From the NCBI GenBank assembly GCA_022824805.1, contig JAJDZE010000136.1, positions 1 to 38,637 on the forward strand: a DNA stretch of 38,637 nucleotides, in the 5' to 3' direction. Origin of the DNA: Acidimicrobiia bacterium (lineage in GTDB: Bacteria; Actinomycetota; Acidimicrobiia; Acidimicrobiales; Poriferisodalaceae). The stretch's first letter is position 1; every line of letters starts with the position of its first letter. Below, one piece after another: positions 32,706 to 38,637 of the stretch. Below the pieces are notes generated by a model, which saw nothing but the letters and a program-made list of their open reading frames with translations, had not been told where the DNA came from and ran no database searches. Position numbers and translations under genes: made by a program.

Positions 32706-33497
32706 TCAGCCGCGGCCGACGAGGGGCATGCCGTTGGCCATCACTGTCATGGTGAGCACGTTGGTGTCGGCGGGCAGTTCTGCCATGTACAGCACGGCAC
32801 GGGCTACGTCGTCGACGTCCATCAGCGGCTCGGCACGGATGCTGCCGTCGGCTTGGGGAACGCCCGTGGCCATTGGGGCCGTCAGGGGCGACTCGGCGTT
32901 GCCGATGTCGATCTGGCCGACGGTGATGCCGTGATCCCGTCCCTCCAGCGACAGGGCCTTGGTGAGCCCCGTGAGCGCATGTTTCGTTGCCGTGTACGGC
33001 GACGAGTTCGGCCGTGGCGTCTGTGCCGACACTGATCCGTTGTTGATGATGCGACCGCCGGAGGGCTGCTGGCGCTTCATCTGCGCGAACGCGGCGCGGG
33101 CGCACAGCCACGATCCGGTGAGATTCACCCCGACCGTGGCCATCCAGTCGGCGATCGGCAGTTCATCCACCGGTACCGGGCGAGTGCCCATGCCGGCGTT
33201 GTTGAACAGCAGGTCCACACGGCCGAACTGTTCGACGGCGGCGGTGAACAAGGCGTCCACGTGAGAGGGGTCCGACACATCTGCAGTCACGGCGAGTGCG
33301 TCAGCGGCGCACTGATCCGCCACCTCGTCGAGCAGCTCCCGGCGGCGTCCGCACACGACGGTCATCCAGCCGGCTTCCGAGAGTGCGAGCGCACATGCCC
33401 GGCCGATGCCCGTGCCGCCGCCGGTGATGATGGCCACCCGGTCTGACGGGTGTGATCCTGCCGCGTGTGCGGCCGTGGCGCCTTGCTGCTCAGTCAC
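32706..33497 (-). CDS. Short-chain dehydrogenase/reductase (SDR)
   Basis: A classical SDR of 263 residues: cofactor loop TGGGTGIGRA, GRRREL at the end of the second strand (basic, suggesting NADP), DVSD, NNAG, and the catalytic Ser (NNGSVSA) with Y-x3-K in SPYTATKHA. Substrate unknown. GTG 33497 is chosen because GGGAGG lies 6 nt upstream; the frame is open farther up but there overlaps glnS. The start codon overlaps the glnS stop (GTGA), so it is translated with glnS. Confidence 0.92.
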   Translation of the reverse strand: MTEQQGATAAHAAGSHPSDRVAIITGGGTGIGRACALALSEAGWMTVVCGRRRELLDEVADQCAADALAVTADVSDPSHVDALFTAAVEQFGRVDLLFNNAGMGTRPVPVDELPIADWMATVGVNLTGSWLCARAAFAQMKRQQPSGGRIINNGSVSAQTPRPNSSPYTATKHALTGLTKALSLEGRDHGITVGQIDIGNAESPLTAPMATGVPQADGSIRAEPLMDVDDVARAVLYMAELPADTNVLTMTVMANGMPLVGRG

Positions 33498-35308
33498 CTG
33501 CTGCCTCCCTGATCTCCTGGACGAACGGAGCCACCGGATTGCCGCTGGCGTTTCTGGATGTTCGCCCACTCGTCGCGCAGGCCGACGGTGCGGTGGAACA
33601 GAGGCACTCCGGAGCTGCCCGAGTTTGCGTCGCTGGCCACGACGCTGTCGGCGCAGAAATAGCCGAGGCGCTCGAACTGCACCGCTTGGCCGGGGATGAT
33701 GTCGCCGATCGCGGGTTCGGCGACCCCGGCACAGAGTTCGCGTGAGTTCGGATGCAGGTCGTCGAGCGGATCACCGGTGCGCTCGCCCGGCAGTTCGGCG
33801 TGGAAGAGACGTTCGTACAGTGCCGCTTCGATGGGCACGGCGTGGTCGGCACTGACCCAGTGGATCGTCGCCTTGACCTTGCGGCCGTCTGGCGCCTGAC
33901 CGCCGGAGGTCTCGGGGTCATAGGTACAGCGCACCTCGGTGACGTTTCCCTCGGAGTCGGTCACCGCGTCGGTGCAGCGAACGAAATAGCCGGCGCGCAG
34001 CCGCACCTCGCGTCCAGGCGTCAGCCGGAAGTACTTGGGCGGCGCCTCCATCCGGAAGTCATCCTGCTCGATCCACAAAGTGCCGCTGAAGGGCACCCGT
34101 CGGGCGCCTGCTGATGGATCCTCAGGGTTGTTGACCGCTTCCCGGTACTCGACGAGAGGCGCCCCGTCATCGTCGGTCGGCCAGTTGGTGATCACCAGCT
34201 TCAACGGTCGCAGCACGGCCATCCGCCTGGGTGCAGTGGCATTCAGCTCGGTGCGCACGAATGACTCGAGCAGCTCGGGTGCGTGCCGGCTGTTGGTACG
34301 CGCCACGCCGATGAAGCCGCAGAAGTCCCGGATGGCCGAGGGGGGATAGCCGCGCCTGCGCAGGGCCCGCAGCGTGGGCAGCCGTGGATCGTCCCAGCCG
34401 TCCACGTGACTGTCTTCCACGAGACGGCGAAGGATTCGTTTGGAGGTGATCGTGTGGGTCAACTCGAGGCGGGCGAATTCGGTCTGATGGGGGCGGTCGC
34501 CCCGATGACCCAGCTCGGCGAGGGGCAGGTGCTCCAAGTACCAGTCGTACAGCGCCCGGTTGTCCCTGAATTCCAGCGTGCACAGCGAATGGGTGACGCC
34601 TTCGATGGCGTCGCTCTGGCCGTGTGCCCAGTCGTAGGTGGGATAGATGCACCAGCGATCGCCGCTGCGGTAGTGGTGCTTGTGGCGGATGCGGTACATC
34701 ACCGGGTCACGCATCTGCATGTTCTCGTGCTGCATGTCGACACGGGCCCGCAGCACTCTGCTGCCTTCGGAATGCCGGCCGGCGGCCATCTCCCGGAACA
34801 GGCGCAGGTTTTCTTCAACTCCCCGATTGCGGCACGGGCTCTCGACGCCTGGCTGCCCGAAGCCTCCCCGCCCGGCCGAGATGGCGTCTGCATCCTGGTC
34901 GTCGACGTAGGCCAGCCCCCGTTCGATGAGGTGCTCAGCCCATGCGTAGAGCTGTTCGAAATAATCGGAGGCGAACCGGATCTCATCAGGCTCGAAACCC
35001 AGCCATCTCACGTCGTCGACGATGGCCTCGACGTACTCGGGACTCTCGGTTGCCGGGTTCGTGTCGTCGAAGCGGAGAAAGCAACGGCCGCCGAACTCGG
35101 AGGCCACCGTGAAGTCCAAGCAGATTGCCTTGGCGTGACCAACGTGGAGATACCCGTTCGGTTCCGGCGGGAAGCGGGTCTGGACCCTGCCCGCGAAACG
35201 CTCCGACCCTAAGTCGGCCTCGACTTGATCTCGAACGAAATCGCGACCGCCGTTGGAGGATTCGCTCAACGGGGCAGATCCTCTGGACGTACTTGATCGG
35301 TCTGACAC
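33494..35308 (-). CDS. glnS: Glutaminyl-tRNA synthetase GlnRS
   Basis: GlnRS directly charges tRNA-Gln. In 604 residues: FPPEPNGYLHVGHAKAICLDF with the HIGH motif HVGH at 55-58, LRFDDTNP, IYPTYDWAHGQSDAIEGVTHSLCTLEF and DNRALYDWYLE (GlnRS rather than GluRS signatures), and the KMSKS-equivalent TSKR at 288-291 in HTITSKRIL, followed by the two beta-barrel anticodon-binding domains (RVPFSGTLWIEQDDF). Longer than E. coli GlnRS (about 554) mainly at both ends. GTG 35308 has GAGGA 5 nt upstream. Most actinobacteria lack GlnRS and make Gln-tRNA by the GatCAB amidotransferase, so the gene is likely of transferred origin in this lineage (inference). It shares a transcript with the SDR gene. Confidence 0.96.
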   Translation of the reverse strand: MSDRSSTSRGSAPLSESSNGGRDFVRDQVEADLGSERFAGRVQTRFPPEPNGYLHVGHAKAICLDFTVASEFGGRCFLRFDDTNPATESPEYVEAIVDDVRWLGFEPDEIRFASDYFEQLYAWAEHLIERGLAYVDDQDADAISAGRGGFGQPGVESPCRNRGVEENLRLFREMAAGRHSEGSRVLRARVDMQHENMQMRDPVMYRIRHKHHYRSGDRWCIYPTYDWAHGQSDAIEGVTHSLCTLEFRDNRALYDWYLEHLPLAELGHRGDRPHQTEFARLELTHTITSKRILRRLVEDSHVDGWDDPRLPTLRALRRRGYPPSAIRDFCGFIGVARTNSRHAPELLESFVRTELNATAPRRMAVLRPLKLVITNWPTDDDGAPLVEYREAVNNPEDPSAGARRVPFSGTLWIEQDDFRMEAPPKYFRLTPGREVRLRAGYFVRCTDAVTDSEGNVTEVRCTYDPETSGGQAPDGRKVKATIHWVSADHAVPIEAALYERLFHAELPGERTGDPLDDLHPNSRELCAGVAEPAIGDIIPGQAVQFERLGYFCADSVVASDANSGSSGVPLFHRTVGLRDEWANIQKRQRQSGGSVRPGDQGGSR

Positions 35309-36382: not shown

Positions 36383-37930
36383 TCACATGGTGGCGATGTG
36401 GCGGAAGGCTGAGTACTTGGGCTGGTCGATCGCTACTTGGTGGGCGACGGAGGTGCGCAGGTAGTCGGCGAGGCCGGGCTCGTCGAGCGGCATGGCCCCG
36501 TCGCGCAGCGCGTGCACGAGGCGCCAGCGCAGTGCCGTGACCTGCTCGGCAATCTGTGTATCTGGGGCGGCGCGGTCGCTGGCCATCGAATCGCTGTCGC
36601 CGACCAGCGCGGTGAGCCGCTCCAGCTCGTAGCGATGCAGCTGCGGCCCGATCAGGCGTTCGCGCAACACGATGTCGAGGGAGTTGCCTGCCACGAGCGC
36701 CAGAAAATTCGTGCGTCCCTCGGTGGCTTGGCGGACCTCGCCATGCAGAAAGTCGCGCACGCTCTCGAGCAGCTCGTCCACGCGGGGCATGTCTGCGGCC
36801 GCGGCGTGCGCCTGAGCACTGGTCTCGCTGCCGCCGAGCGGCGACAGTGACTGAGGTCGCCGACCGATATCAGGCTCAAGCAGGCCCAGTTCACCCACGG
36901 CAGGTTGGAACTCCACAGGCCCCGGGATGATCAGGTTGACGCAGTCGAGCTGGCATTCCGAGCTGCGGCGACCGATTCCTGGTCGCTCGACGGTGGCGTC
37001 GGAGCCCATCCGGTAGCGATCCGCCATGGACAGGCAGCCGACCGCCCACCAGAACGAGCCGAACACCTCCCAGTACTGCACCCGATCCCGATCGACGGGG
37101 TGGCCGGCCACGTTCTCGTAGCCGGCAAACAGGTCTTCGTAAAGGCCGAAGCCGCCGACCGGCAGGTGCCGCTGCCCGAAGCGCCACGAATTGGTGCACA
37201 TCCAGCCCAGGTCGCGCATCGGGTCGCCGATGTGGGCCGTCTCCCAGTCGAGCACCGCATTCAGACCCTCGTCGGGGTCGACCATGACATTGCCGTTGCG
37301 GAAGTCGTTGTGCACCAGGGTCAGCTCGACCGGTCCGCGGCCCGCCAACTGCTCAGTCAGCCAGCGTCCCGCGTAGTCGATCATGGGCTGGGGTGTCGGC
37401 ATCTCCCTGTAGCGGTCCCACGATTCAGCGAGGTATTCGGCGGGCTCCACCCGGCGCAGCACGGCCCCCAAGCCCGAAGCGTCGAGATCTATGCCGTGGA
37501 TGCGGGCCATCTCCTGGCCGCACTGGAACGCCAGCCCCGAGCGCACGCTGGCCAGCTCGGGTGCCCTGGCAATGCGGGCACCCAGTGTCACGCCGTCGAG
37601 CCACTCCATCAGGAAGCCGGCGCCGACTCCATCTTCGGGCGTCAGCACGTACAGCACTTCGGGCTCGGGAACCCCGGCTGCGCGGGCCGCCGCCATGCAC
37701 TGTGCCTCGGCAGCCACGCCCGTGACGTTGTCTCCCTCACGATCCTCGCCGTCCGGCCCCCGGCGCAGGCAGATGTCGAAGCTGGTATTGGGGTCGGACG
37801 CCCGCCGGCACACCAGTCGGTAGGTCTCCATGCTGGCCCCACCGCTCAGCCGTTCGGCCTCGACGAGGCCCTCACAGTCGGGCACCTCTCGCCGGATGAC
37901 CCGGTCCAGCGCGTCGAAGAATTCAGGCAC
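36383..37930 (-). CDS. Phosphotransferase-family protein fused to a DUF6285-like domain
   Basis: A 515-residue two-domain protein. The N-terminal domain (about 1-340) is an aminoglycoside-phosphotransferase/ACAD10-like kinase fold: RLSGGASMETYRL (nucleotide loop), catalytic VHNDFRNGN (H207, D209) and metal-binding LDWETAHIGDPMRDLGW (D228). After a linker (about 345-380) the C-terminal domain (381-515) matches the pattern of DUF6285: DELLESVRDFLHGEVRQATEGRTNFLALVAGNSLDIV. In relatives these are usually separate adjacent genes. Relatives of the kinase domain are linked to acyl-CoA dehydrogenases, possibly phosphorylating hydroxyacyl-CoA. GTG 37930 starts 13 nt after the PhyH stop, so the two genes are probably co-transcribed. 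Confidence 0.87.
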   Translation of the reverse strand: MPEFFDALDRVIRREVPDCEGLVEAERLSGGASMETYRLVCRRASDPNTSFDICLRRGPDGEDREGDNVTGVAAEAQCMAAARAAGVPEPEVLYVLTPEDGVGAGFLMEWLDGVTLGARIARAPELASVRSGLAFQCGQEMARIHGIDLDASGLGAVLRRVEPAEYLAESWDRYREMPTPQPMIDYAGRWLTEQLAGRGPVELTLVHNDFRNGNVMVDPDEGLNAVLDWETAHIGDPMRDLGWMCTNSWRFGQRHLPVGGFGLYEDLFAGYENVAGHPVDRDRVQYWEVFGSFWWAVGCLSMADRYRMGSDATVERPGIGRRSSECQLDCVNLIIPGPVEFQPAVGELGLLEPDIGRRPQSLSPLGGSETSAQAHAAAADMPRVDELLESVRDFLHGEVRQATEGRTNFLALVAGNSLDIVLRERLIGPQLHRYELERLTALVGDSDSMASDRAAPDTQIAEQVTALRWRLVHALRDGAMPLDEPGLADYLRTSVAHQVAIDQPKYSAFRHIATM

Positions 37931-37943
37931 GGAAGCGTCCCGC

Positions 37944-38637
37944 TCAGCCGTCGGCGTCTTTCTGCTGGGAACCGAAGATGGTCGGCGGACCCTTGCGGGA
38001 CCAGTCGGGCGCACCGTGCATCTGGCGGCCGCCGATCGTGAGCATCTGGGACGCCTCGCCGCCGCAGATGCGGCCGCCGCTCGACCCCAGCACACCGTTC
38101 GCGCCGATGTGGCTGATCGGGTACGAGTCGACCGCCGAGTAGGTCTGCAGCAGCAGCGGCCGGGGGCGCGGCGAGTTGTTGGGCAGCGAGCCATGGATCA
38201 TGCAGCAGTTGTGCACCGTGACCGAGCCTGCCGGCCCGCCGAGGTACACCATCTGGTCCAAGTCCAGGGTCGCCACATCGGCATTGGCCATCGACCCCGC
38301 CCAGCTCCCGTCGGGCGCGTACTGGTCGAACAGCGGGCCCCGATGGCTGCCGGGCAGCACACCCATCGGCGACATCTCGGCGTCGACATCTTCGAGATAG
38401 ACGCCGATCGTGAGCGGGGTGAAGTCAGTGTGAGGCCAGAACTGGATGTCCTGGTGCCACTTCACTTCCTCACCGCCGCCTGACCACTTGAAGTTGAGCT
38501 TGGAGTGGTGGTAGCGCACCGGGCCGCCGAGCAGGGCCGAGGCAAGCTGCGCCGGGGGGCCTTCAAAGGTAAACCTCGCGTAGGTCGGGTGCTGATCGAC
38601 CGGCGAGATCAGCCGCCGTAGCCGGGGCGCATCGGAG
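37944..38637 (-). CDS. Phytanoyl-CoA dioxygenase (PhyH) family protein, N-terminus cut
   Basis: A non-haem Fe(II)/2-oxoglutarate-dependent oxygenase. The frame is open to the window edge, so the N-terminus is missing. Visible: the HxD iron motif in VKWHQDIQFWPHTDF, LEDVDAEMSPMGVLPGSHRG, and the distal His and 2-oxoglutarate-binding Arg in TVHNCCMIHGSLPNNSPRPRP. 231 residues are visible; the full family length is about 280-300. Substrate unknown; marine actinobacteria carry many PhyH paralogues. It lies directly upstream of the phosphotransferase-DUF6285 gene. Confidence 0.9.
   Translation of the reverse strand, partial: SDAPRLRRLISPVDQHPTYARFTFEGPPAQLASALLGGPVRYHHSKLNFKWSGGGEEVKWHQDIQFWPHTDFTPLTIGVYLEDVDAEMSPMGVLPGSHRGPLFDQYAPDGSWAGSMANADVATLDLDQMVYLGGPAGSVTVHNCCMIHGSLPNNSPRPRPLLLQTYSAVDSYPISHIGANGVLGSSGGRICGGEASQMLTIGGRQMHGAPDWSRKGPPTIFGSQQKDADG

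Follow-up and report, generated by a model that had tools for sequence, protein, structure and literature searches.

The window, i.e. the whole analysed stretch of 38,637 nucleotides, carries close to its end a gene on the minus strand that encodes an APH-type kinase and a DUF6285 domain in one polypeptide. The features of the locus were as follows.

36383..37930, minus strand: fused kinase-DUF6285 gene (LvaA-LvaB-like), 515 aa, GTG start
36920..37930, minus strand: kinase fold, residues 1-337 (Pfam APH at 25-274; AlphaFold2 (AF2) model aligned to 3dxp over 2-336)
37289..37312, minus strand: catalytic loop HNDFRNGN, residues 207-214 (from the translation; Asp and Asn columns invariant in 124/124)
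37241..37249, minus strand: metal-binding DWE, residues 228-230 (from the translation; invariant in a 71-row alignment)
36800..36919, minus strand: linker, residues 338-377 (alignment occupancy and low pLDDT)
36386..36799, minus strand: DUF6285/LvaB module, residues 378-515, a predicted four-helix bundle (Pfam 402-506, own-genome search 36413-36727, AF2 models)
36662..36664, minus strand: codon of Arg423, the near-invariant Arg of DUF6285 (conservation counts)
37944..38636, minus strand: gene of the phytanoyl-CoA dioxygenase family (PhyH), truncated at its 5' end where the contig stops (PF05721, E 3.5e-19)

Translation starts with GTG at 37930, the final codon ends at 36386 and the stop codon occupies 36385-36383. 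An alternative open reading frame (ORF) of 603 aa, with ATG at 38194, would overlap the PhyH gene in a different frame, and most relatives align from residues 1-4 of the 515-aa protein. GTG was therefore considered the better start. No clear ribosome-binding site was seen by eye upstream of it. Pfam assigned residues 25-274 to APH (PF01636, E 6e-29, 101.9 bits against a cut-off of 23.2) and residues 402-506 to DUF6285 (PF19802, E 7.8e-23, 81.4 bits against a cut-off of 28.1). With both domains in one chain and one ORF, the natural fusion proposed in the preliminary description is real, and the C-terminal part does match DUF6285. The motifs HNDFRNGN and DWE, there taken as catalytic, are indeed kept; all 124 aligned kinase domains linked to DUF6285 have the catalytic Asp, an Asn five positions after it and the DxE Asp.

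An intact fused gene was found in 10 of the 11 genomes of the genus, the window's own included, and was 85-93% identical in 9 of the 10 other genomes. The linker is the variable part of the protein: its residues 346-370 were occupied in 0% of far relatives and residues 371-375 in 36%. It holds a genus-specific insertion of about 25-30 residues (36821-36895, minus strand), absent from nearly all far relatives. A second genus-specific insertion of about 15 residues lies in DUF6285 (residues 446-460; 36551-36595, minus strand), and is likewise missing from nearly all far relatives.

The PhyH gene noted earlier upstream of the kinase was confirmed. It lies on the same strand at a distance of 13 nt, and the contig terminates at 38637. 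As judged by eye from the translation, which lacks the 5' end, the HxD motif and the distal His are retained. Downstream, 168 nt after the kinase gene, is a gene for a SCO6745-family HTH protein (NF047719; 35315-36214, minus strand), which was also seen in related loci, e.g. L014. It is followed by a 604-aa ORF (33494-35308, minus strand) which, by eye, we take to resemble glutaminyl-tRNA synthetase, an enzyme unusual for an actinobacterium. An ORF of similar size is found downstream of the fused gene in six related loci.

The AF2 model of the fusion had a pLDDT of 88.3 and a pTM of 0.89. That these values were high in spite of the poorly predicted linker, where pLDDT dropped to 49, suggests that the two parts hold a fixed arrangement. 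The best structural match of the kinase part was 3dxp (Z 24.3, 309 residues, 3.6 Å), tied with the 25-hydroxysteroid kinase (25-HSK) 9ft5 (Z 23.6, 317 residues, 3.9 Å). Modelled in isolation, DUF6285 was predicted as a four-helix bundle with a weaker pTM of 0.66. A fold search with this domain gave no matches at E <= 0.001 and a best Z of 5.9 over 46 residues, a result which does not show a new fold, and no solved relative of the DUF6285 part was found in the structure searches. In its C-terminal region the blocks of pLDDT were 86-98 in the fusion versus 56-94 alone, with alignments of different depth (71 versus 30 rows). Such a higher confidence within the fusion is as expected if DUF6285 packs on the kinase.

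The identity of DUF6285 was approached through the lva operon. LvaB of the P. aeruginosa plasmid p12939-PER, annotated as '4-hydroxypentanoyl-CoA kinase subunit LvaB', matches PF19802 at E 4.8e-24. The plasmid genes are ordered as in the lva operon (regulator, phosphotransferase, lvaB, acyl-CoA dehydrogenase, SDR-type 'glucose 1-dehydrogenase', acyl-CoA synthetase), with a 4 nt overlap between the kinase gene and lvaB. Three further separate partners, encoded on plasmids of Sulfitobacter, Thermus and Azoarcus, match PF19802 at 5e-22 to 2e-17. Because the annotated LvaB of the plasmid operon matches PF19802, DUF6285 is, by sequence, LvaB, a subunit of the kinase. According to the account of Rand et al. 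(2017) given in passages of PMC6692424, the 12 kDa LvaB was pulled down with LvaA, and both proteins are required in P. putida for conversion of 4-hydroxyvaleryl-CoA into 4-phosphovaleryl-CoA. The earlier suggestion that DUF6285 works directly with the kinase as a subunit thus agrees with a published partnership. The same phosphorylation is described, in the parts of PMC12440821 and PMC11342911 consulted, for the LvaA-like kinase domains of ACAD10/11, followed by elimination of phosphate by the dehydrogenase domain; 4-hydroxyacyl-CoA kinase activity of LvaA and ACAD10/11 is accordingly reported across excerpts of these two papers and PMC6692424.

In the tree LvaA fell inside the DUF6285-linked kinase group (124 rows), with 99% SH-aLRT support against four paralogues. 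The window protein shares with lva the pairing of an LvaA-type kinase with LvaB. The lva context of an Asp-type LvaC, LvaD and LvaE was not found: PhyH is upstream, the SCO6745-family protein is downstream, and no lvaC, lvaD or lvaE adjoins the gene. The functional guess made earlier is mostly right, and much of it is already implicit in the lva literature. As observations on the operons themselves, the complete-looking lva (levulinate) operon of the large Pseudomonas plasmid p12939-PER lies near partition genes, and in Thermus brockianus (L088, 7312-7953) and Azoarcus sp. KH32C (L092, 7370-8047) the gene immediately after the split kinase-DUF6285 pair belongs to the histidine phosphatase family. 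For P. citronellolis, PMC6692424 reports a gene of this sort next to lvaA.

The fused relatives studied were the best 80 of 224, a biased sample with patterns drawn from both domains of the query. Both parts were in one ORF in 79 of these 80 and the remaining one runs off its contig. They came from Acidimicrobiia, Gamma- and Alphaproteobacteria, with single members of Myxococcota, Acidobacteriota and Chloroflexota. A survey with DUF6285 only found the domain in 58/198 genomes of the class, 18/246 of the phylum (overlapping the class sample) and 24/299 of the phylum of the Pseudomonadaceae MAG G422. All places from these three samples, leaving out the window and the seed genome (G422), made up a set of 92 together with L185 (one of seven in a further search). 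The domains were fused in 24, always with the kinase first, and split in 62, where the kinase gene lies directly upstream on the same strand with no more than 95 nt between the domain ends. DUF6285 is thus usually a separate neighbouring gene, as described earlier. Neither arrangement was seen at six places: the domains were 736 nt apart in L100 and 1077 nt apart in L185, no kinase lay in the 4.5 kb retrieved for L117, contig ends intervened at L103 and L137, and L149 was the sixth. At L149 (G031) a Glu-type dehydrogenase gene is followed by DUF6285, and the kinase, which sits on a very long branch, is on the far side. By sample, the fused form made up 22/59 of the class set, 0/9 elsewhere in the phylum, 2/23 of the G422 set and 0/1 of the further search; L152, missed by the DUF6285 profile built here, was counted as fused from Pfam coordinates.

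The fused form is widespread rather than odd. The preliminary description would have been refuted by a fusion both common and already described; the fusion is common, but no published description was found in the literature searches, including those by the name DUF6285. The window kinase belongs to a clade of 35 rows with 100% support, all fused. Over the whole tree of 128 rows the labels fused and split changed 15 times, of which 6 were forced by starred branches. When six long-branch rows were removed (122 rows), 10 label changes were left and a single origin had a p-AU of 0.0003; the contig-edge fragment L142 had been left out of the tree by the length filter. A single origin of all fused forms was rejected on these grounds. 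As judged from the tree, the fused forms do not share one origin, gain and loss are not distinguishable, and isolated fused rows may be assembly errors.

For the 80 fused genes (best 80 of 224), the next gene upstream in the same orientation encoded an acyl-CoA dehydrogenase (ACAD) in 35 loci, PhyH in 26 and another protein in 11, and none was found in eight, two of them at contig ends. The ACAD genes, at distances of -4 to 88 nt, occupy this slot mostly in Proteobacteria. PhyH-upstream loci with a class name were from Acidimicrobiia (19 of the 26) and Actinomycetes (1). In all 35 directly upstream dehydrogenases the active-site motif was RITEGxEEIQ, the Glu type. The plasmid LvaC carries Asp, in RIYDGPSEVHR or a close variant, and so do the dehydrogenases found in the split operons of Thermus and Azoarcus. 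The Glu/Asp column is presumably the catalytic position. An Asp-type ACAD was found in the flanks of only 3 of the 80 fused loci, never directly upstream, and in the Sulfitobacter split operon a Glu-type ACAD directly follows DUF6285. A catalytic Asp is named as typical of LvaC and ACAD10/11 in PMC12440821. A plain label of 'lva operon' was dropped, since the adjoining ACAD carries Glu and not Asp in 35/35 directly upstream copies. The second step or the substrate of the fused clade must therefore differ from lva.

The window genome has a Glu-type ACAD on contig C4 (63% identical over 416 residues). A Glu-type ACAD at E <= 1e-90 was found in 17/198 class genomes, and all 17 also have DUF6285, compared with 58/198 overall; the hypergeometric value of 1.3e-10 ignores relatedness, and is inflated because the 17 genomes fall into 7 family codes. 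The dehydrogenase and the kinase-DUF6285 pair thus go together: their genes adjoin in Proteobacteria and lie at separate sites in the window's lineage.

Nine of the 26 PhyH loci have the exact downstream order polyketide-cyclase-like protein, ACAD, alpha/beta hydrolase, thiolase, ChsH2-type OB protein and PHP-associated protein, and the nearest solved structures of this ACAD are 4x28 and Tcur3483. These two we take to be steroid side-chain enzymes. From this gene order and the relatives of the ACAD, the best guess at a putative substrate is a branched or isoprenoid hydroxyacyl-CoA. The idea that PhyH oxidation is followed by phosphorylation of an acyl substrate stood in part: hydroxyacyl phosphorylation is a reaction known from LvaA and from the kinase domains of ACAD10/11, and the link to PhyH is only local (26/80 fused loci among the best 80 of 224, with ACAD in 35/80). 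A literature search on PhyH, Acidimicrobiia and phosphotransferase together returned nothing.

In ACAD11, CoA is held by R176 (PMC12440821). The corresponding column, in an RQxxxW stretch, was Arg in 36/36 related kinases without DUF6285 and in 0/124 kinases with a DUF6285 partner, the window's included, in a gappy alignment of the loop. The former are ACAD11, 3dxp, 9o56, four paralogues from the window genome and 29 more; these were the 29 top loci when a single paralogue served as the query, so the kinases are related to each other. The plasmid LvaA likewise lacks the CoA-site Arg. A loose, alignment-free motif for this Arg gave 52/124 with DUF6285 versus 32/36 without, no clean separation, and R86 of ACAD11 was left out because the numbering of the paper did not fit the chain. 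In DUF6285, Arg423 was kept in 80/80 fused rows (best 80 of 224 relatives), in 29/29 rows including four separate partners with LvaB among them, and in 90/91 survey domains. Because the partner kinases lack the CoA-site Arg and the DUF6285 Arg is near-invariant, we propose that LvaB/DUF6285 would make up for the missing CoA contact and complete the acyl-CoA site. R423 could have a structural role instead, and the Arg contrast follows one split of the tree, and may reflect a single event. The main text of PMC12440821 and PMC11342911, as far as consulted, never mentions LvaB in connection with the assays of ACAD10/11 and a Burkholderia kinase; kinase activity there without mention of LvaB, next to the need of P. 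putida LvaA for LvaB, fits the compensation idea. The window genome also holds Asp-type (ADGPDEVH) dehydrogenases and the four APH paralogues with the CoA-site Arg (contigs C208 and C164; L187, L189), and an additional 4-hydroxyacyl route of ACAD10/11 type may operate in it.

Alternatively, the substrate of the kinase could be a free alcohol, tertiary or secondary, such as a steroid or isoprenoid side chain, as for 25-HSK, and not a CoA ester. The tied second place of 25-HSK (9ft5/9fsg, Z 23.6) among the structural matches and the missing ACAD11-type Arg point in this direction, as do some Acidimicrobiia operons that encode, besides a ChsH2-type OB protein and a thiolase, an ACAD with 4x28 as its closest solved relative. 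However, the neighbouring families act on CoA esters, and LvaA acts on a CoA ester without the same Arg and shares the DUF6285 partner, so we regard a free alcohol as unlikely. Near-universal pairing would also be seen if DUF6285 were the phosphorylated substrate in a protein kinase-substrate pair, and Y506 is conserved in 77/91 survey domains. This role, also raised earlier, was not upheld: the domain has no strictly conserved Ser, Thr or Tyr, nor one that is near-invariant once LvaB is included, and the best Ser/Thr column reaches 72/91 with Arg at that column in the window, which makes it very improbable.

An aminoglycoside or macrolide antibiotic phosphotransferase would share the APH fold, and weak matches to macrolide kinases were obtained, but the best, MphF, scored 25.5 bits against a cut-off of 650, all NCBIfam resistance models were far under cut-off and the conserved neighbours are of beta-oxidation type; the chance of such a function is slight in the extreme. 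Given the 4 nt overlap of the separate genes in the plasmid lva operon, one indel could fuse the pair, and the fusion could then be an artefact of assembly or of a frameshift. For the window's clade this is refuted by the single ORFs among the best 80 of 224 relatives, from many assemblies, and by fused genes free of stops in the genus, and an artefact is hardly credible.

The window protein is probably a single-chain kinase of the LvaA-LvaB type acting on a hydroxyacyl-CoA, in which DUF6285 would complete acyl-CoA recognition and the phosphate would then be removed by an ACAD. By homology, the APH-type N-terminal domain would move phosphate from ATP to a hydroxyl on the acyl-CoA, and this hydroxyl may be made by the PhyH oxygenase encoded just upstream. 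The C-terminal DUF6285 would be the obligatory partner LvaB, as judged from homology, operon position and the partnership published for P. putida; packed on the kinase, it may offer R423 in place of the CoA-binding Arg. The phosphate would turn the hydroxyl into a leaving group, and the dehydrogenase, in the window genome probably that of contig C4, would yield enoyl-CoA for beta-oxidation. A wider reading is offered tentatively, and we consider it rather doubtful as a whole: DUF6285/LvaB would be a substrate-site subunit that takes over CoA binding via its own Arg, and the fused clade an undescribed ATP-driven route by which a hydroxyl on a branched acyl-CoA, made by PhyH or otherwise, is phosphorylated and removed by a Glu-type ACAD. 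New here, within the literature searched, are the fused arrangement with its several origins, the partners of the fused clade (PhyH and a dehydrogenase of the Glu type) and the contrast in the CoA-site Arg. The analysis ties a 'domain of unknown function' to a known enzyme subunit, and the fusion offers a natural single-chain construct for learning the function of LvaB. The results point to a second phosphorylation-elimination route into beta-oxidation in environmental bacteria, and the kinase family bears on ACAD10/11, the enzymes with this role in mammals.

Among solved structures, 3dxp (Ralstonia eutropha Reut_A1007, by title a putative aminoglycoside phosphotransferase) is the best fold match of the window kinase but has the CoA-site Arg. 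With 25-HSK the kinase shares the fold and, in the findings of PMC8449060 consulted, a phosphorylation that readies a hydroxyl for elimination; its solved chain, about 370 residues long, covers just the kinase part in the alignment, and 25-HSK acts on free steroid alcohols. The kinase domains of ACAD10/ACAD11, as presented in parts of PMC12440821 and PMC11342911, have the fold, the catalytic motifs and a kinase step before an acyl-CoA dehydrogenase in common with the window protein, but they are fused to the dehydrogenase instead of DUF6285, and ACAD11 carries the CoA-binding Arg which the window kinase lacks. LvaA and LvaB of the P. putida lva operon are likewise an APH-type kinase and a DUF6285 partner with the same catalytic residues, and LvaA, in the plasmid copy tested, is also without the ACAD11-type CoA-binding Arg. 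Unlike the two genes for LvaA and LvaB, the window gene encodes one chain, has no lvaC, lvaD or lvaE beside it and belongs to a clade whose linked ACAD has Glu and not Asp.
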